From assembly GCA_937981955.1 (NCBI GenBank), contig CALJNA010000012.1, positions 1 to 64,000 on the forward strand: a stretch of DNA of 64,000 nt, in the 5' to 3' direction. Both the position numbers and the translations under genes were made by a program. This DNA is from an uncultured Granulosicoccaceae bacterium. GTDB lineage: Bacteria; Pseudomonadota; Gammaproteobacteria; Granulosicoccales; Granulosicoccaceae. The first letter of the stretch is position 1; each line of letters opens with the position of its first letter. Shown in pieces: positions 1,771 to 10,608 of this stretch. Under the pieces are notes generated by a model. The model ran no database searches and was not told the origin of the DNA. It saw only the letters and a program-made list of their open reading frames with translations.

Positions 1771-4695
1771 TTACAGTTGGTGCAATTCCATCGCCAGCGA
1801 CTCCACATCCGATAAACCAGCTGTTGCAGCATTAGTGATCGCAGCAATACTGGCTTTTTCAGGCTCGAAATACTGCTCTCCAACTCTCATCAAGTCAGTC
1901 AGTTTTACTTCAAGAATCTTTTGTCTTGCGGCTTGCCTGATCTCTGGTGTGCGACCGAATAATTCACTTTGATAAGCACTTCGAGCCTCTCCAACGGGTG
2001 AGGCTGGTTTGTCGATTCCGCTGACTACATTCAGGATTGCCTCCTCAAGTGCTTGCTCGTTGTGTTTCTCATTGAGTAGCCACTGCACAGATGCGTCGAA
2101 ATCGTTCATGGTGTCCACCAGTCTCGGATCGCGATACGAGTAGAATTTGAACGATGCTGAGTCCGGGTCATAAGTTGCGCCGCCTCCGTATGCACCACCT
2201 GTTTCGCGTATGGCTCTGTGCAGAAAACCATTCCGTAAAAAAGGTCCAAGCACTGCCAAGGCTGCCGCATCTTCATGTGCAGAGGGCACGACCTCATAGG
2301 CTTTTGCACAGAAGTTAACTTCTGTGCTGGTTGTCCATAATTGCCGCACCTGTTCCCGTACCGGTGAAGGTTTTTCTGCAGATGCGCTTGACCGGTTACC
2401 ATCGGTAAACAGTTTGACCAGATCAGCGTTGATCGAGGCCAGATTATCCTGTTCGGCGACTATCATGTAGCGCTTTGACGATGCCTGAATGATTTCTGAG
2501 AGTTCGGCTAATTTTTCGCAAATTGCTGACAGCCACTGATCGTCTGCGGCTTTGTCATCGAACTGTTTAATCGTTTGAATACCAACCAGCCCACTAAGTT
2601 GGTGCGACAGCCTGGCAATTGGGCTCATGCCGCTTGCCGCAGCCGCCATGGCCAGCGTGTGTCCACGCCCGGTCACACTTTGTTCCGCAGCCGCTCTTGA
2701 CTGTGCGATAAGTTCTCGAATCCGGCCGTGTTCATCAAAGCGTAATTGATGCAGGGTGTCGTAGAGGATCTTGCTCAGCTCACTGCTGTTCCGCATCAAT
2801 GATTTTCCGCGCAAGATAAGGTAGCTGGTTACGTCTTGCTCGTTATCCCGCGCGCTTCTGCGACTGGCATACATTGATATACCACCAGTGACAGATGCTT
2901 GCAGAGCTTGTGTTTCAATGTAGTCTCTGCCTCCGGAGCCGATTTCGGTTGCCAGGCGCGAATACATGGGTAACAGAGTCTGCAATTCATCACCCAGAGT
3001 CGGTAAGTCCATGACGATATGCTGATAGGCAAGACCGTTTGTGCCCTGCGCATAGTGCATTGCAGGTGCATCCCCGACATTCTCATGCGTGCCGGTACAA
3101 ATGTTCATGGTTGCCGGCACATCTGCCAGCGTCACTTTCGGCAAAATGTCGGGGTCGTCAACCTTGGTTTGTCTTTCTGCCAGTGCTTTGGTTTTTTCAA
3201 CAATACGAGTTATGTCGTCAGGCTGTAGACTGGATTTCATTTCCGCCAGACGTTTTTTTTCAGATTCTAAGCGACGCTCGCTAATCTGGCTGTCAGGGCG
3301 AAGTGTCAGCCGCACCCGATGGGTATTCTCCAACAGCAAACGCTTTATCAAGCCGGGAATAAATGCTGGGTCGTCCGCTGCTTGTCTGAGTCGTTCCAAG
3401 GCAGGATCGAGATCGAGTGCAGCAATGGCATCACCTCGCTGCATTGCAGGCGCTAGCCCGCCCAAAAGCAAGGTTAAGCCAAACGGCATACCGTCACCGC
3501 GTATTTCGCGCTGGCTCAGTTCCAGCTGATGAAGTACAGCATCAACTTGTTCTTTGGGCACACCTTTTTTAGCGACGTCTTCCAACACGCCCAAAATCAG
3601 TGCTTCTATCTCATCAGCTTTGTCCGGATTGGTACCATCGATACCACAAACAAAGACCATCTCCAATGAACCATCGTCAACCCCGCAAAGAGGCGAGGGC
3701 GCGTTACCCAGATCGGTTTGTTCCAGCGCCTGCATTAATGGTGATGCACTATTGTCTAATAATACACTTGATAACAAGTGTGTTTGTAGACGCTCATCGA
3801 GATCAATACTTTTGCCGAGCAACCAGCTCATGACAACATGAGTTTTGTCTTCCTTGTCGTTGTCATCTGTTGCATAAGCTTCTTCGACTCTGACTGGGGC
3901 GTAGATTCTGTGTGCGCGGTCAACCTTAATAACTCGGTCAAGAGCTTCAAAGCGTGCCAGCACCTGATCTTCGAATCGCTGTTGTAATTCCGCAGCAGGA
4001 ATGTCTCCATATGTCATGAAAACCGCATTGCTTGGGTGGTAGTGCGTTTTATAAAAGCTGACGAGCTCCTCATAGGATAAATCAGGAATGGCTTCCGGGT
4101 CGCCACCACTGTTGTGGTGATAGGTATTATTCGGGTGCAAATACTTACTGACTTCCTGCCAAAGTATGCTGGTGGGTGCGCTCATGGCGCCTTTCATCTC
4201 ATTGAACACCACGCCTTTGAAAACAAGATCGCTGCTCGGGTCATCAGGGGTTTCAAATTCGACTCTGTGGCCCTCCTGCATAAAGTCCAGCTCTGCAAGC
4301 CTTGAGAAGAAAACCGCGTCCAGATAAACATCGAGCAAATTGAAATAGTCTTTTCTATTTTGACTGGCAAACGGGTAGGCGGTCCAGTCACTGGATGTGA
4401 ATGCGTTCATAAACGTGTTCAGGGAGCGCCTGATCATCATGAAAAACGGGTCGCGTACCGGGTATTTTTCACTGCCGCACAGCACCGTGTGTTCGAGTAT
4501 GTGGGCAACCCCGGAGGAGTCGGTCGGGATGGTGCGTAATCCGACCAGAAATACGTTTTCCGGGTTATCAGCAGCCAAATGGATGTGAGGCGCTCCCGTT
4601 TTTATGTGACGGAATTCATGCACATCGATATCAAGCGATTCGATTTTCGCGGTTCGCAGCTGCTCGAAAGCAGGGTGTGGCGACATGATATTCAT
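1771..4695 (-). CDS. M16C metallopeptidase, presequence protease (PreP)-like
   Basis: A zinc peptidase of the insulinase/pitrilysin superfamily, subfamily M16C (PreP type), which degrades peptides inside a closed two-half chamber. The inverted zinc motif HILEH is present near residue 65 (counting from 4695), followed by CGSEKYPVRDPFF and NTFMNAFTSSDWTAYPF. The distal zinc glutamate is in VVFNEMKGAMS about 100 residues later. Length is 974 residues, normal for the family, with all four M16 repeats. The frame stays open to a GTG at 4788, but family alignment places the N terminus at MNIMSPHPAFEQLR or MSPHPAFEQLR (4695 or 4686). 4695 has a weak GGA six bases upstream and was chosen. Bacterial members are usually cytoplasmic and no signal peptide is seen. 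Divergent from the ankyrin gene at 4835. Confidence 0.9.
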   Translation of the reverse strand: MNIMSPHPAFEQLRTAKIESLDIDVHEFRHIKTGAPHIHLAADNPENVFLVGLRTIPTDSSGVAHILEHTVLCGSEKYPVRDPFFMMIRRSLNTFMNAFTSSDWTAYPFASQNRKDYFNLLDVYLDAVFFSRLAELDFMQEGHRVEFETPDDPSSDLVFKGVVFNEMKGAMSAPTSILWQEVSKYLHPNNTYHHNSGGDPEAIPDLSYEELVSFYKTHYHPSNAVFMTYGDIPAAELQQRFEDQVLARFEALDRVIKVDRAHRIYAPVRVEEAYATDDNDKEDKTHVVMSWLLGKSIDLDERLQTHLLSSVLLDNSASPLMQALEQTDLGNAPSPLCGVDDGSLEMVFVCGIDGTNPDKADEIEALILGVLEDVAKKGVPKEQVDAVLHQLELSQREIRGDGMPFGLTLLLGGLAPAMQRGDAIAALDLDPALERLRQAADDPAFIPGLIKRLLLENTHRVRLTLRPDSQISERRLESEKKRLAEMKSSLQPDDITRIVEKTKALAERQTKVDDPDILPKVTLADVPATMNICTGTHENVGDAPAMHYAQGTNGLAYQHIVMDLPTLGDELQTLLPMYSRLATEIGSGGRDYIETQALQASVTGGISMYASRRSARDNEQDVTSYLILRGKSLMRNSSELSKILYDTLHQLRFDEHGRIRELIAQSRAAAEQSVTGRGHTLAMAAAASGMSPIARLSHQLSGLVGIQTIKQFDDKAADDQWLSAICEKLAELSEIIQASSKRYMIVAEQDNLASINADLVKLFTDGNRSSASAEKPSPVREQVRQLWTTSTEVNFCAKAYEVVPSAHEDAAALAVLGPFLRNGFLHRAIRETGGAYGGGATYDPDSASFKFYSYRDPRLVDTMNDFDASVQWLLNEKHNEQALEEAILNVVSGIDKPASPVGEARSAYQSELFGRTPEIRQAARQKILEVKLTDLMRVGEQYFEPEKASIAAITNAATAGLSDVESLAMELHQL

Positions 4696-4834
4696 AAAAA
4701 GTCCGGGCTCCGGTTGGGCGCTTTCCAGCGATTCAAATACAAGTATAAGCCCCGGCGCGGGTTTGGTGGCCGGTTTTGCCAAGTTCACACTTTAAGACGG
4801 CTAAAGACGGGCCGATACGTCCTTAAGGGAGCAT

Positions 4835-6658
4835 GTGGTCTTGGCAAGGAGTTTTGCGAAAGACCTACCAAATCGGTGTCGAGGCATTGTGAAATTTCTA
4901 CTAATTATAATAGCAATGATGGGGATGAGCGCGGGTGCTTGGCATTCCTATGAGAACCGTAACCGGCTGATACAGGCTGCTCTGCTTTCCGAGGGATTTG
5001 CTCTGAGCCAACCGGTAAAATCGCGGATAGCTGACCATTATTTCCAGCACAATGTAATGCCGAACGACAACGCTTCCGCCGAATTGCCACCTGCCAAGAG
5101 TATCTACGGAACCAGCGTTAAGCGAGTTGCTGTTAATCGCAGTGGACTGATAATGGTGGATTTCGATGACGAGATTGGTCGTCAGAGCATGATATTCAGC
5201 CCGTCAGTCAGCCCCATAACCGGCATACTTGAATGGCGGTGCACCAGTGATTCCATTGATCCGAAAGTATTGGCACTTTTAAAACCCAACTGTAGCTCTA
5301 TTGCGTCAACCAACGAAGGTCAGCTGATTAACGCCATTGCCAACGGTAACGTTACGCGTGTCGGCGAGTTACTGAAGGCAGGTGCGAACCCTGATGCGGT
5401 AGTGAATGGCAACACCCCTCTGATGTTAGCCTCAAAAACTGGCAATATCGAGTCGGTAAAACTGCTCATTGAGAAGGGTGCGAGTATTGACAACAATGCG
5501 CTTAATTCTCAACGCAGGACCCCATTGATGGTGGCTATAAACAGTAACAATGCAGACGTGGTTGGCTACCTTCTTGCCAACGGTGCGTCGGTAACCCGAC
5601 CTGACTACAAAGGATTAACTGCGCAGGACCATGCGGTTAATACCGATAGACGTTTAGGTGGAGAGCGTTACGAGTTGATGGTACTCGCAAGACTAAATCC
5701 AAACTTTGCAGGCAAGCCGGAAGAGCTTATTACGGGTAAGCGAACGGCTGCAGATCAGGCTGCGCATTTGGAAGCCCTGCATGTTCAGTTAACGCGAGCA
5801 GCAACTGATTGTCATGTGCAGAGATTAACGAGCCTGCTGCAAGAGGAGCAGGATTATCAAATCCCTGAACTCGTTGCCGGCAAACCATTGTCTGCTCACG
5901 TGCGCAAGCCTGAATGTTCAGGGCAACTTCTGTCGTTCATTAAAACAAAAACTTCATATCAGGCAGCTCTGCAACAGCGATTCTCCGCTGCAAGTACATC
6001 TTGTGATCAAAAAACAATAGAGAGTTTAATGCAAGAAAATCCTGATTTAGACATAATGGATAAGACGGGAACGCGTACTCATTTCGATCGAGCGGTTTTT
6101 TCAGGCTGTTCGAATCTGGTTTCGTTTTTTATCCGGGACGGAAAACTCAGAAACCAGATAAATGGCAGTGTTTTGTTGAATGCAATTCGTAAAGCACCTC
6201 AGAAAAAACAAATCGAAATGGTAGGGACGCTGATCGAGGCGGGTGTTAATGTCAACTATCGTGACTCGAAAGGCGTGACATCACTTGCACTTGCCGTTTC
6301 ACTGGAACAACCGGTGGTTGCAAAATATCTGGTGGATGCCGGAGCCGATGTTAATGCGTCCACGATGAACGGATCTTATCCGCTGATAGAAGCATCAAAA
6401 AAGGGTTTCAATCATCTCGTTGCACAAATGATAAGACAAGGAGCTGATATTGATCAGCAGGACTCCCTGGGAAGAACAGCACTGGTTGCCGCGGTGGCGA
6501 AGGGGCGCAGTCGTCTTGTTGATACGCTGCTGCGCGCCGGTGCAAACGCTATGCTAAAAGATAATGATGGTATCAATGCTGTGATGCTTGCTGAAAGCAG
6601 AAACTTCAAGCAAATTTATTCACAATTGACAGCAAGTGCTGCCAACGATAACTATTGA
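4835..6658 (+). CDS. Membrane-anchored pilin-like domain fused to ankyrin repeats
   Basis: A 607-residue protein in three parts. Residues 19-35 form one hydrophobic N-terminal anchor. Residues about 42-155 look like the globular part of a type IV pilin: a helix with SQPVKSRIADHYFQHNVMP, then SIYGTSVKRVAV, GLIMVDF and a closing Cys136-Cys153 pair in WRCTSDS...LKPNCSS, which matches the disulfide-bonded D-region of PilA pilins. Residues about 158-270 and 465-600 are ankyrin repeats (GNTPLMLASKTGNIESVKLL, GVTSLALAVS, GRTALVAAVAKG) separated by a diverged middle. No prepilin peptidase motif is visible. The start may be GTG 4835 (AAGGGAG at 4825-4831) or GTG 4889 (GAGG at 4880-4883), which puts the anchor at the N terminus. 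The ankyrin part should lie outside the cytoplasm. Function unknown. Confidence 0.75.
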   Translation: MVLARSFAKDLPNRCRGIVKFLLIIIAMMGMSAGAWHSYENRNRLIQAALLSEGFALSQPVKSRIADHYFQHNVMPNDNASAELPPAKSIYGTSVKRVAVNRSGLIMVDFDDEIGRQSMIFSPSVSPITGILEWRCTSDSIDPKVLALLKPNCSSIASTNEGQLINAIANGNVTRVGELLKAGANPDAVVNGNTPLMLASKTGNIESVKLLIEKGASIDNNALNSQRRTPLMVAINSNNADVVGYLLANGASVTRPDYKGLTAQDHAVNTDRRLGGERYELMVLARLNPNFAGKPEELITGKRTAADQAAHLEALHVQLTRAATDCHVQRLTSLLQEEQDYQIPELVAGKPLSAHVRKPECSGQLLSFIKTKTSYQAALQQRFSAASTSCDQKTIESLMQENPDLDIMDKTGTRTHFDRAVFSGCSNLVSFFIRDGKLRNQINGSVLLNAIRKAPQKKQIEMVGTLIEAGVNVNYRDSKGVTSLALAVSLEQPVVAKYLVDAGADVNASTMNGSYPLIEASKKGFNHLVAQMIRQGADIDQQDSLGRTALVAAVAKGRSRLVDTLLRAGANAMLKDNDGINAVMLAESRNFKQIYSQLTASAANDNY

Positions 6659-8170
6659 TTACTCTTCCAGTACTACTGTACCCATAACGGATGGGTCCAT
6701 ATACGATGTGTCTGTATCTGTGTTATCGCTGCGAGACGGGTGAAACCAACCCCATTTGCTCTCGCGGCTTCCGCCATCATCATCGTCATTGAGTTGTAGT
6801 TCGAAGCCGAACGGCTCACCGGCTGTAATACCTGCAGACGCTATTGGAATAGCCAGTTCGTAAACATCCTGCTCAAAGCGTATCGCCCTTATACCGTCGG
6901 GTCCTATTCCTGGTCCGGTGAAGAATTCGATATCCAGCTCTGTGTTAACAGAACGTGGTCCGTCAGAAAATCTACCGTTGATTTCGTTATTACCCACTCT
7001 GTTAGTACTGTTCTGCTTCAGCAATGGAATAAGCAGATGGGCATCGTCATCATCTCCCCAGGTGCTCAGTTTGCTGTTATTTCCGTCTATGAAAAGTTCA
7101 AGGGAATCGTCTTGCCAGTGGTCCAGTGAGTCGGCTTGTCGTTGGCCGATATCATCGGATAACACCAGCACGTAAAGATACTCACCGTCGTGGACAGCGG
7201 CCCAGCGTCGAAGCTCGGCGCCGTCGGCAGAATCAGCGTCGATATCGATCATTAAATTGTTTATCCACAGTCGTTCGCCGGAGTTATCGAATTGCACAGC
7301 GTCTTCCCATTCGCCGATCAGATTATCCTGGCCATTCAATTCGGCACCAAGTCCATCAATGACAGGCGCGCTGCTTGCTGAAATTCGTGGTATCAGTACG
7401 GTTGGTTCTGTTTGCGGTTCTGGCGAGCCCCCTTCGGTTCCCGATGTAGTGTTATCACCACCTATAGACCCGCTTGTGTTTGCGTCTGTGGTTTGTCCGT
7501 CAGTACCATCTGCATCGGTACCGCCAGTAGTTGTTGTACCTTGCGTGCTTGTACCGTCTGTTCCGGTATTTCCGTCGGTTGATGTGCCGTCTGTACTGCT
7601 TCCGCTGTCTGTTAAGTCTGTGCCGGCGGTATTTCCGGCATTGACCGAGCCATCGCCGTTACCTTCGCCGTTATCTTCGCCGTTAATTTCATCGTTAGGC
7701 ACAAACGGGTTAGTGTTGTTCTGTCGTTCCATTAAATTGGAGATGCCGTCTCCGTCCTGGTCGATAGTGAGATCGTAGTTGTCTTCTGACAAAATAATCT
7801 CTTCACCATCGGCTCCAACATCAACATTCTCTGCCCAGGTAGCTAGCACCAGGTCGCCCTCGGGCATGGTTTCTATCCACTCGATTGTGACAAAGTAGCT
7901 GCTATTCGGTTGTACGTTGATGCTGCCAGACCAAATGTTGTCTCCGGTTTGTTGCATTGGAATGGTTTGACCATTAGAGAGACTGACAGATGGTCTGAGT
8001 TGACTGCGATCAATCGCCCGGACTTGAAGAATTCTTTCAGGCGCTTTGAATTGCACATTAGATTGTACAGCCGGTGAAGGCTGGCAAGCACCCAACAATG
8101 CACTTAACGTCAATGCACACAGTGCTTGAGGTGTTCGCAGGTATCGCTTTAATACTGTCTTGTTTCCCAT
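6659..8170 (-). CDS. Lipoprotein with Asp/Thr/Gly-rich linker and CBM9-like domain
   Basis: A 503-residue exported lipoprotein. The N terminus has a signal peptide ending in LLGAC, with Cys29 as the lipidation site. Residues about 35-130 form a beta-rich domain, followed by DQDGDGISNLMERQ, a calcium-binding thrombospondin type 3-like loop. About 160-255 is a low-complexity linker of Gly, Thr, Asp and Ser. Residues about 265-503 resemble the family 9 carbohydrate-binding/DOMON-like fold (HDGEYLYVLVLSDD, DDSLELFIDGNNSK, GFELQLNDDDD). Such domains bind sugars or haem in secreted oxidoreductases and glycanases, but no catalytic domain is present here. It follows the Fn3-like membrane protein with a TAATG overlap at 8170, so the two are translationally coupled and probably work together at the cell surface. 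Ligand unknown. Confidence 0.75.
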   Translation of the reverse strand: MGNKTVLKRYLRTPQALCALTLSALLGACQPSPAVQSNVQFKAPERILQVRAIDRSQLRPSVSLSNGQTIPMQQTGDNIWSGSINVQPNSSYFVTIEWIETMPEGDLVLATWAENVDVGADGEEIILSEDNYDLTIDQDGDGISNLMERQNNTNPFVPNDEINGEDNGEGNGDGSVNAGNTAGTDLTDSGSSTDGTSTDGNTGTDGTSTQGTTTTGGTDADGTDGQTTDANTSGSIGGDNTTSGTEGGSPEPQTEPTVLIPRISASSAPVIDGLGAELNGQDNLIGEWEDAVQFDNSGERLWINNLMIDIDADSADGAELRRWAAVHDGEYLYVLVLSDDIGQRQADSLDHWQDDSLELFIDGNNSKLSTWGDDDDAHLLIPLLKQNSTNRVGNNEINGRFSDGPRSVNTELDIEFFTGPGIGPDGIRAIRFEQDVYELAIPIASAGITAGEPFGFELQLNDDDDGGSRESKWGWFHPSRSDNTDTDTSYMDPSVMGTVVLEE

Positions 8171-8772
8171 TACTGCAATCCTGTCAATGTGACTGATAAT
8201 GGAACCCCACCTTCACCGGATGAGCTACTACCGCCGCTACTGGCCGCACCCACCACTGCGCCAACAAGTACTACACCCAGTGCAACTTGCCACCAACGTA
8301 CGCCACCGCTAGTTGCCGGTGTATCTGCTACAACAGCAGGCGCAGTACTTATAACGGTTTTGTTTCCGATGAGTACTCTTGTATACGGGTCGAATGCATA
8401 ACCTTCCACAGTTCGGTTACCACCCTCGTCACGTGCCTGAACGTAATATTGAATCGCACGCAAGTCAGTAGGGTCGGTTTCAATGGATACGGTGTAGTAG
8501 CCACTGTCTGCAATAGCTGACATCGGTACTGGTGTGAAGGCTTGTTGTCCTTCTCGACGATAGTAGAGGATGACATCTTTAATAATGCGATTGTCTGCAA
8601 CCTGCGCAGTAAACACCTGTGTTTGCTCCGCCTCGGCTTCCGCCACTGCTTCCAGCTCAATCACGGGCGAGCGCGTATCTGGCGAACTTTGAGCCAGAGT
8701 CAGGGTCGCATGGGTAAGCGATAGCGACAACGCCAGTATTGTGGCAATGAGTTTGTTGAGTGAACCGATCAT
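8170..8772 (-). CDS. Exported protein with Fn3/Ig-like domain and C-terminal membrane segment
   Basis: About 200 residues from the ATG at 8770-8772: a signal peptide (LNKLIATILALSLSLTHA), a beta-sandwich-like domain with YYRREGQQAFTPVPM, GYYTVSIETD and IQYYVQARDEGGNRT, and near the C terminus one hydrophobic helix (WWQVALGVVLVGAVVGAA) followed by a Ser/Gly-rich end. The frame runs open to 9000, but the upstream part contains no plausible start and overlaps the divergent amidohydrolase gene. ATG 8791-8793 is an alternative start; 8772 has GAGAAG upstream and gives a clean signal peptide. Domains of this kind occur with FecR-type or surface-sensing proteins, but no FecR motif was recognised. 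It is coupled by a one-base overlap to the CBM9-like lipoprotein. Function unknown. Confidence 0.65.
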   Translation of the reverse strand: MIGSLNKLIATILALSLSLTHATLTLAQSSPDTRSPVIELEAVAEAEAEQTQVFTAQVADNRIIKDVILYYRREGQQAFTPVPMSAIADSGYYTVSIETDPTDLRAIQYYVQARDEGGNRTVEGYAFDPYTRVLIGNKTVISTAPAVVADTPATSGGVRWWQVALGVVLVGAVVGAASSGGSSSSGEGGVPLSVTLTGLQ

Positions 8773-8907
8773 GGTGATGGACTTCTCAGGCATGTCATAT
8801 ATTAATATGGATTGGACTAGTATAAGTGAGCTGCCCGGGCTTGCCGTGAACCTCGCAACGTATCGCGCATACCATTTAGTTATGTTCGTCGAAAAAACCA
8901 AAAAACC
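8773..8907. promoter_or_regulatory. Divergent promoter region
   Basis: About 135 bases between the divergently transcribed Fn3-like membrane protein and the amidohydrolase. The A+T-rich dyad ATATTAATAT (8797-8806) is the most promoter-like element. No conventional -35/-10 pair was assigned with confidence. Confidence 0.35.
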
Positions 8908-10608
8908 TTGAAACGTCACGCAATTGTGTCTTTGCTGGTATTGCTGCTTATCTTGGCGGGAGTGCGAACTGTGCCCACGCAGGCCTTTATCAACGGCCAC
9001 ATCATTACCATGGATGGCAATAGTCGTGTAGTGGAGGCCATGCTGGTGCGAGATGGTCGACTTGAAGATTTGGGTACTAATCGCGCCATAGGTGACAAAA
9101 TTACATCGTCTGTTCGTGTGATTGACTTAGGCGGGCGTACTGTATTGCCGGGCTTTATCGATGCCCATAGTCATTTTCCGGTACCGGGTGTCAGGCAGGT
9201 CAGTGTCGATTTGTCGCCACCACCTGTGGGTACGACCGACACTATTGAGGTGTTGTTAAATAAAATTGCTGCTCAGGTAAAACTGCAAAGTAGTGACGAC
9301 TGGCTACTTGGGTTCAACTATGACAATACCGTGTTGGCCAACGGCGAGCATCCTACACGCAAACAATTGGACTCTGTTGCACCTGATCATCCTGTTTACC
9401 TTTGGCACAACTCGGGGCATATGGGTGTCGCAAACTCACGTGCATTAGCGTTGTTATCGATTGATGAGTCAACTGCACCTGCGAGTAATATGTTGTTGGG
9501 TCGGAATAGCGAAACCGGCCAGTTAAATGGCTTGTTACAGGAAACTGCCGCTCCATCACTGGCTACCATCGTTGGAAAATTTTCATGGCTTACACAGTTT
9601 CGCATTTTGACTGAAGCGAGAGATGCGTATCTCGCTCAGGGTGTGACCACAGTTCAGAATGGATATGCCGGACTAAACATGATGCGGGTTTTGAAAGCCG
9701 CCACCATAACAGGCTTAGTCCCACAACGAGTAGTTGTCTGGCCGGCGCGTGATAAAAAAGGTGTGGAACAAGTCTTTAGTGCAATGCAACATGAAACCAT
9801 CGAATCTGATTTTAAATTTAAAAACGGCGCGATCAAATTTCTTGTTGATGGCAGCCCTCAGGGGTTAACGGCATTCCTCAGCAAGCCGTTTTTTAATCCA
9901 AAAGCTCACCCAAAGCATTTTCGTGGTATTGCGCTAATCGATCAGGACTCACTGACTTCACTGGTGAGACGCTACCATGCAAATGGCTATCAAATTGCAC
10001 TGCATGGCAACGGCGATCAAGCAATCGAATATATAATCAATGCTGTTGAGGCGGCGCAAACTGAATACCCGCGCGATGATGCACGTCATATCATCGTTCA
10101 TGCTCAAACCATAAGAAAAGATCAACTGGCGCGGCTTAACGCAGTTGGCCTGACACCAAGCTTTTTTAATTCTCATACGTTCTACTGGGGTGACTGGCAC
10201 AGACAGATATCACTCGGACCTGATAGAGCTGCGAGTATCAGCCCCACAGGCTGGGCCAGTGAACTCGGTGTGCGGTTCACCTTGCATAGTGATGCACCGG
10301 TAACTCCAATAAATCCAATGCAGATGCTGTGGAGTGCGACTAAAAGACAAACGTCAAGCGGATTCGAACTGGGTGCTGAGCAACAAATAGACATGGATAC
10401 GGCTCTAAGGGCAATCACCATCGATGCGGCCTGGCAAAACCATATTGATGAGGCGGTTGGTTCGCTTGAAACAGGCAAGCAGGCCGACTTCGTTGTGCTG
10501 TCGGACAATCCGTACGAGGCTGACGATGTACGCTTGATTGAGGTAGTGGCTACTTATATTGCGGGCGTAAAGCACTACGGTGCTGCCAGAGGGTTCGTAA
10601 GCGAATAA
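8908..10608 (+). CDS. YtcJ-type amidohydrolase, membrane-anchored or exported
   Basis: A 566-residue member of the amidohydrolase superfamily (amidohydrolase 3, YtcJ/LAF3 group). Residues 5-22 are hydrophobic, suggesting export or a membrane anchor. The metal-site pieces are present in order: GFIDAHSHF near residue 87, a Lys in GAIKFLVDGSP, HGNGDQA, the HAQ segment and LHSDAPVTP with the final aspartate. It should hydrolyse an amide or similar C-N bond of a small molecule; the substrate cannot be read from sequence. The start is TTG at 8908, chosen because the signal-like helix begins there, though no good Shine-Dalgarno is seen. It ends about 80 bases before the carnitine operon on the same strand; shared transcription is possible, but the gap contains its own repeats. 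Confidence 0.8.
   Translation: MKRHAIVSLLVLLLILAGVRTVPTQAFINGHIITMDGNSRVVEAMLVRDGRLEDLGTNRAIGDKITSSVRVIDLGGRTVLPGFIDAHSHFPVPGVRQVSVDLSPPPVGTTDTIEVLLNKIAAQVKLQSSDDWLLGFNYDNTVLANGEHPTRKQLDSVAPDHPVYLWHNSGHMGVANSRALALLSIDESTAPASNMLLGRNSETGQLNGLLQETAAPSLATIVGKFSWLTQFRILTEARDAYLAQGVTTVQNGYAGLNMMRVLKAATITGLVPQRVVVWPARDKKGVEQVFSAMQHETIESDFKFKNGAIKFLVDGSPQGLTAFLSKPFFNPKAHPKHFRGIALIDQDSLTSLVRRYHANGYQIALHGNGDQAIEYIINAVEAAQTEYPRDDARHIIVHAQTIRKDQLARLNAVGLTPSFFNSHTFYWGDWHRQISLGPDRAASISPTGWASELGVRFTLHSDAPVTPINPMQMLWSATKRQTSSGFELGAEQQIDMDTALRAITIDAAWQNHIDEAVGSLETGKQADFVVLSDNPYEADDVRLIEVVATYIAGVKHYGAARGFVSE

Follow-up and report, generated by a model that had tools for sequence, protein, structure and literature searches.

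Pilins are treated as the subunits of polymers, and the gene analyzed here raises the question of what a pilin head does alone. It lies in a window of 64,000 nucleotides (the whole stretch of DNA that was analyzed, from contig CALJNA010000012.1 of an uncultured Granulosicoccaceae bacterium) and encodes a pilin head joined to ankyrin repeats; it belongs to a leaderless family in which this head has been selected across the genus Granulosicoccus without a visible route to a fiber. The architecture is conserved and, as far as the open-license literature goes, undescribed: no description of a pilin–ankyrin protein was found among open-license papers. Our analysis indicates that the protein is probably an envelope scaffold or adaptor derived from a pilin, the head of which carries ankyrin repeats that would bind a protein partner or partners.

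The Pilin–Ankyrin Gene and Its Start

The frame at positions 4835–6658 (+), from which a sequence-only reading of the window had set out, is a genuine open reading frame, but its first codon is not the start of the gene, as homologues align only from a GTG at 4889. The coding region from this conserved start spans 4889–6658 (+) and encodes 589 amino acids, beginning with MKFLLIII and ending at a TGA stop codon. The GTG is present in 19 of the 20 Granulosicoccus rows of the alignment, the exception (L009) having an ATA directly after a TTG. In the homologue alignment 5' of the GTG there was no similarity in any homologue; the upstream codons are conserved in none of them, which rules out the start at 4835 with its RG/IVKFL, resembling a Gly−1 cleavage site.

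For pairs with unsaturated synonymous sites, dN/dS is 0.02–0.10 in the pilin head and 0.06–0.10 in the ankyrins, and in those pairs where both could be measured the constraint on the head is about equal to or above that on the ankyrin part. Both halves are under purifying selection, and this is therefore not a chance frame; a sequencing artefact or a chance fusion of two genes is likewise ruled out, as the same fusion occurs in many genomes under purifying selection. From its N-terminus, the protein reads M-K and 16 nonpolar residues; a long helix follows, then a sheet of four strands, the loop that Cys118 and Cys135 close, and ankyrin repeats up to the C-terminal end. The full-length AlphaFold model, built with the family alignment, has a pLDDT of 85.9 and a pTM of 0.48, the latter meaning that the relative arrangement of the domains is not fixed by the model.

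A Type IVa Pilin Domain

Residues 1–137 are a type IVa pilin domain. Following the hydrophobic start of alpha-1, residues 19–137 (4943–5299, +) form the rest of this long helix, four strands and the D-region, as indicated by Pfam, AlphaFold and fold matches. The Pfam model Pilin (PF00114) matches inside this domain (4985–5272, +) with 33.3 bits against a cut-off of 22 (E 1e-7) and is above the cut-off in all seven homologues scanned; a phmmer search against the PDB matched Neisseria PilE at 1e-6. These matches bear out the pattern of helix, beta-strands and cysteine pair that had suggested a pilin to the sequence-only reading; its Cys136 and Cys153 are real and become, numbered from the true start, Cys118 (5240–5242, +) and Cys135 (5291–5293, +), the two cysteines of the D-loop. 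The N-terminal hydrophobic helix that it had pointed out is conserved, and both helix and cysteines are kept in every homologue; ten alignment columns are invariant across 22 homologues, the two cysteines among them.

AlphaFold predicts a helix at residues 2–54 and strands at 79–82, 88–91, 100–107, and 114–120. As a fold search with the full model was swamped by the ankyrins, we folded the pilin part separately (pLDDT 87.7, pTM 0.77). The first eleven Foldseek matches to this model are all pilins, the best being a Neisseria pilin (E 2.9e-6); with VIA-align, the best match is the gonococcal (Neisseria) pilin at Z 12.2, rows 1–28 contain only pilins and pseudopilins, and unrelated folds reach at most Z 4.4. 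The predicted fold thus agrees best with PilA/PilE pilins, as had been proposed, and has the long alpha-1, the antiparallel sheet and the cysteine-closed D-region of the pilin fold.

An N-Terminus without a Prepilin Leader

The hydrophobic start of alpha-1 (residues 3–18; 4895–4942, +) has no leader, no Gly−1, and no Glu5, and may be either a signal anchor or a signal peptide with A-G-A at residues 15–17. That the prepilin cleavage motif is missing had been noted from the window alone; it turns out to be a trait of the whole family, as a leader ending in Gly or Ala (class III signal peptide), a cleavage glycine, and Glu5 were found in none of the 22 homologues. Glu at mature position 5 is usual in type IV pilins, not universal. 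Aligned to pilins, the first residue of the window protein corresponds to approximately mature position 3, and the protein has no Pfam match to N_methyl (PF07963). In G392, a genome from a sister genus, a TGA sits two codons ahead of the TTG start (TGA-AGA-TTG-AAA), so that this gene cannot encode a leader, and in G037, a relative from another family, the frame opens only nine codons ahead of the ATG.

A prepilin peptidase and ordinary prepilins (MKNRGFTLIELM) are also encoded in the genome of the window. At another locus (L035, G000:C148), a sigma-54-type response regulator ends ahead of a tandem pair of ordinary prepilin genes (GFTLIELMIVIAIIG), the genome's real pilins.

The N-terminal features suggest that the pilin head stands outside the filament pathway. 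Among the roles that had been considered for the protein, the family-wide absence of the leader favors a periplasmic scaffold and weakens a minor pilin or a pilus adhesin. A modular minor pilin, acting as an adhesin at the tip of a type IV pilus and assembled without normal processing, would be in keeping with the pilins and prepilin peptidase of the genome, with tip pilins from which Glu5 can be missing (PMC10191384), and with modular pilins, which are common, carry grafted C-terminal domains, and include some adhesins (PMC8179133). However, no homologue has a class III signal peptide, G392 has no room for one, and no pilus gene was recognized adjacent to the gene among the neighborhoods read; we regard this role as very improbable.

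At 16 residues the hydrophobic stretch is short, and its 19-residue Kyte–Doolittle mean is 1.4–2.0 in the genus versus 3.0 for the genome's own pilin, for which reasons it may not serve as a permanent membrane anchor. The stretch could instead be a genuine Sec signal peptide, from which signal peptidase I, cutting after Ala17, would release a soluble periplasmic ankyrin protein with the head as a folding or docking domain; as to location, this cut form is a sub-case of the scaffold. The weaker hydrophobicity compared with a real pilin fits such a peptide, as does the order of M-K, about 11 strongly hydrophobic residues, and A-G-A, and residues 15 (A/V/I) and 17 (A/S/G) of the genus members and G392 conform to the (−3,−1) small-residue rule. 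Yet residue 18, at +1, is conserved as hydrophobic, which is unusual past a cleavage site; in the G037 relative no site stands out clearly, and in the model the helix runs on through residue 17. We hold cleavage to be a serious possibility, at somewhat less than even chances.

Ankyrin Repeats and Conserved Cysteines

In the ankyrin part, the protein matches Pfam Ank_2 at 132 bits and ankyrin models down to 1e-38; residues 357–587 match in fold a single ankyrin solenoid, at Z 21 to DARPins and gankyrin. The two blocks of repeats described previously are real, at residues 142–270 (5312–5698, +; Pfam and model) and 424–587 (6158–6649, +; Pfam and fold match), but the stretch between them, except for a hinge modeled with low confidence at residues 274–283 (5708–5737, +; pLDDT under 50), also consists of ankyrin repeats, in degenerate form (residues 287–420; 5747–6148, +). 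NCBIfam models for a Legionella Ank effector and for MzaA match through the ankyrin repeats alone and far under their cut-offs, and were discarded. Block 1 is missing from L021 (G018) and L091 (G392), and the degenerate part from L022 and L023 (G006 and G016); with blocks varying among members, the array is modular and the pilin head constant.

The degenerate repeats contain Cys308, Cys343, Cys372, and Cys407 (codons 5810, 5915, 6002, and 6107, +), which share one A-B turn position over four successive repeats, the register being judged by eye. Of 17 full-length Granulosicoccus proteins, 16 have exactly six cysteines, at positions equivalent to 118, 135, 308, 343, 372, and 407; the remaining one carries a seventh at residue 14, within the hydrophobic stretch. 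Where the four-cysteine region is absent, members keep the pilin pair, which is invariant across the 22 homologues, and one of these members also has the residue-14 cysteine. Cysteines so strictly conserved, with hardly any others in the proteins, fit disulfides in an oxidizing compartment; Cys118–Cys135 and the cysteines of the ankyrin part are candidates for such bonds, and the ankyrin array is probably located outside the cytoplasm, in the periplasm. The ladder formed by its four conserved cysteines makes the array look adapted to an oxidizing compartment.

Distribution, Origin, and Genomic Neighborhood

Homologues with both domains, whose existence had been left to be searched for, occur in 22 of 27 Granulosicoccus genomes, among them G023, a single contig of 7.8 Mb. 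The five genomes without the gene have no copy of the neighboring M16 peptidase gene either, for which reason these absences are probably assembly gaps. G392 is the one genome from the sister genera with the gene; G393 and G394 have the M16 and CBM9 genes side by side, with no pilin–ankyrin gene between them. Outside the family, a search of the class (369 genomes, with the best few candidates per genome scored) found a match across both parts only in G037, and a search of the phylum at 1e-22 (398 genomes, six best candidates per genome scored) found no members beyond the window's own.

A tree computed for the pilin part places all pilin–ankyrin rows on one side of a branch with support 99/94, with G037 on a long branch; a profile built without G037 scores this protein no better than ordinary pilins. 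A single origin of these rows including G037 is allowed by the tree, not proved, and an independent origin of the G037 fusion is not required by it.

A conserved block at window positions 1771–10608 comprises the M16 peptidase (divergent), the pilin–ankyrin gene, a CBM9-like lipoprotein (convergent), a small exported protein, and an amidohydrolase. It is kept in Granulosicoccus and G392 and, minus the pilin–ankyrin gene, in G393 and G394. The gene stands alone between its divergent and convergent neighbors, and no partner gene stands out among the genomic neighbors. An operon-based function was rejected, as the gene is solitary and M16 and CBM9 adjoin without it in G393 and G394.

The neighborhood also bears on two further roles. 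One is that of an immunity or chaperone protein like Tli or AnkB, with the pilin head as a tether: Tli is an ankyrin protein giving immunity to type VI lipase effectors, the secreted form having six ankyrin repeats and neutralizing incoming lipase in the periplasm (PMC11470151), and AnkB is periplasmic and supports the catalase KatB, being needed for its full activity, according to a title cited in PMC10294975. Against this, no adjacent lipase effector or catalase was recognized at the loci read, where neighbors were judged by eye, and synteny is constant between species, unlike that of an effector–immunity pair, making the role improbable. The other is a part in the control of piliation: the head would dock to the type IV pilus machine or to the pilins pooled in the membrane, and the ankyrins would hold a regulator. 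A head at least as constrained as the ankyrins and above the Pfam cut-off in all members scanned, in a genome with pilus genes, is what a pilus regulator might show; but the part that was lost, the first residues of alpha-1, is the one used for processing and filament packing, and no linkage with pilus genes was seen. We consider this role unlikely, too.

A Pilin Head as a Probable Envelope Scaffold

The scaffold remains the reading we prefer. What was computed for it are the pilin and ankyrin folds, the family-wide lack of leader and Glu5, the conservation, and the cysteine pattern; from these we infer a periplasmic location, disulfides, non-assembly into pili, and the binding of a partner. 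The short start of M-K and the hydrophobic stretch would direct insertion by Sec with the N-terminus inside; lacking a prepilin leader, the protein could not be processed by prepilin peptidase and would not enter pili. Signal peptidase I would then cut the helix off, or it would remain as an inner-membrane anchor. In the periplasm, the pilin head would fold with a Cys118–Cys135 disulfide, followed by the ankyrin array, probably with further disulfides among its four conserved cysteines, and the array would bind at least one periplasmic or membrane protein.

Other Leaderless Pilin Heads in the Gammaproteobacteria

To the pilin–ankyrin family can be added further pilin heads on other proteins, seen in a scan with the Pilin model in which each family of the class was represented by one genome and the long frames were read, together with two earlier matches. 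An M48 peptidase with a C-terminal pilin domain and neither leader nor Glu5 occurs in two families of the class (L095:479–1867, +; L120:1697–3097, −). A DUF805 membrane protein is fused to a leaderless pilin domain (L125:683–1555, +), and L096 combines a weak DUF2628 match with a C-terminal leaderless pilin domain. A family of approximately 740 residues has a lipoprotein-like N-terminus and a C-terminal pilin domain (L115:2610–4838, −; L116:2439–4655, −; L117:2630–4822, −; L118, an 831-aa frame on the + strand; L119:2534–4747, −); it comes from five genomes of five families, and its body has no Pfam match in the four of five members scanned. By eye, Glu5 is absent from all of these proteins (L095, L120, L125, L096, and L115–L119).

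They resemble the pilin–ankyrin protein in that a pilin domain whose hydrophobic alpha-1 has neither leader nor Glu5 is fused to an unrelated protein, but differ in that their pilin domain is C-terminal and nearer to ordinary pilins (with a PAYQDY-like motif), whereas the pilin–ankyrin head is N-terminal. Two proteins from the same scan, L123 and L126, have a long C-terminal extension and a leader, and match N_methyl; the method thus separates leader-bearing from leaderless pilins.

By these cases the fold has been reused repeatedly, the pilin–ankyrin protein being one instance, and we found no account of such reuse. On balance, if by a small measure, we favor the view that pilin heads in the Gammaproteobacteria have departed repeatedly from the filament pathway and become a general periplasmic module of non-pilus proteins, distinct from modular pilins in having no leader or Glu5. 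If true, this class would include an ankyrin scaffold, an M48 peptidase, a DUF805 protein, and a lipoprotein-like family.

Comparison with Known Systems

With type IVa pilins (PF00114; Neisseria PilE, PDB 1ay2 and 5jw8) the protein shares the long alpha-1, the four-stranded sheet, and the D-region closed by two cysteines, at 21–26% identity over the fold. Unlike them, it has no leader, cleavage glycine, or Glu5, and it continues past the D-loop.

Continuation past this loop is not itself exceptional: the earlier premise that pilins normally end at the disulfide loop was too strong, since modular pilins, with domains after the loop, number more than 1,200 proteins according to the survey describing them (PMC8179133). 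In these proteins, such as PilB and PilC of Streptococcus sanguinis, a binding module is grafted behind a pilin module (PMC8179133), and the pilin–ankyrin protein agrees in carrying a non-pilus domain, ankyrin, after its pilin module. What it lacks is the N-terminal IPR012902 or class III signal peptide, which modular pilins keep, sitting in pili (PMC8179133). The main text of the survey, whose dataset comprises 264 architectures, makes no mention of ankyrin (PMC8179133); being built on the signal motif, the survey cannot detect members that lost it.

AnkB (PMC10294975) and Tli (PMC11470151) differ from the pilin–ankyrin protein in being linked to a catalase or a lipase effector, and no pilin head is described for them in these papers. 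What they have in common with it is the placement of ankyrin repeats outside the cytoplasm, where the array of the pilin–ankyrin protein probably lies as well.
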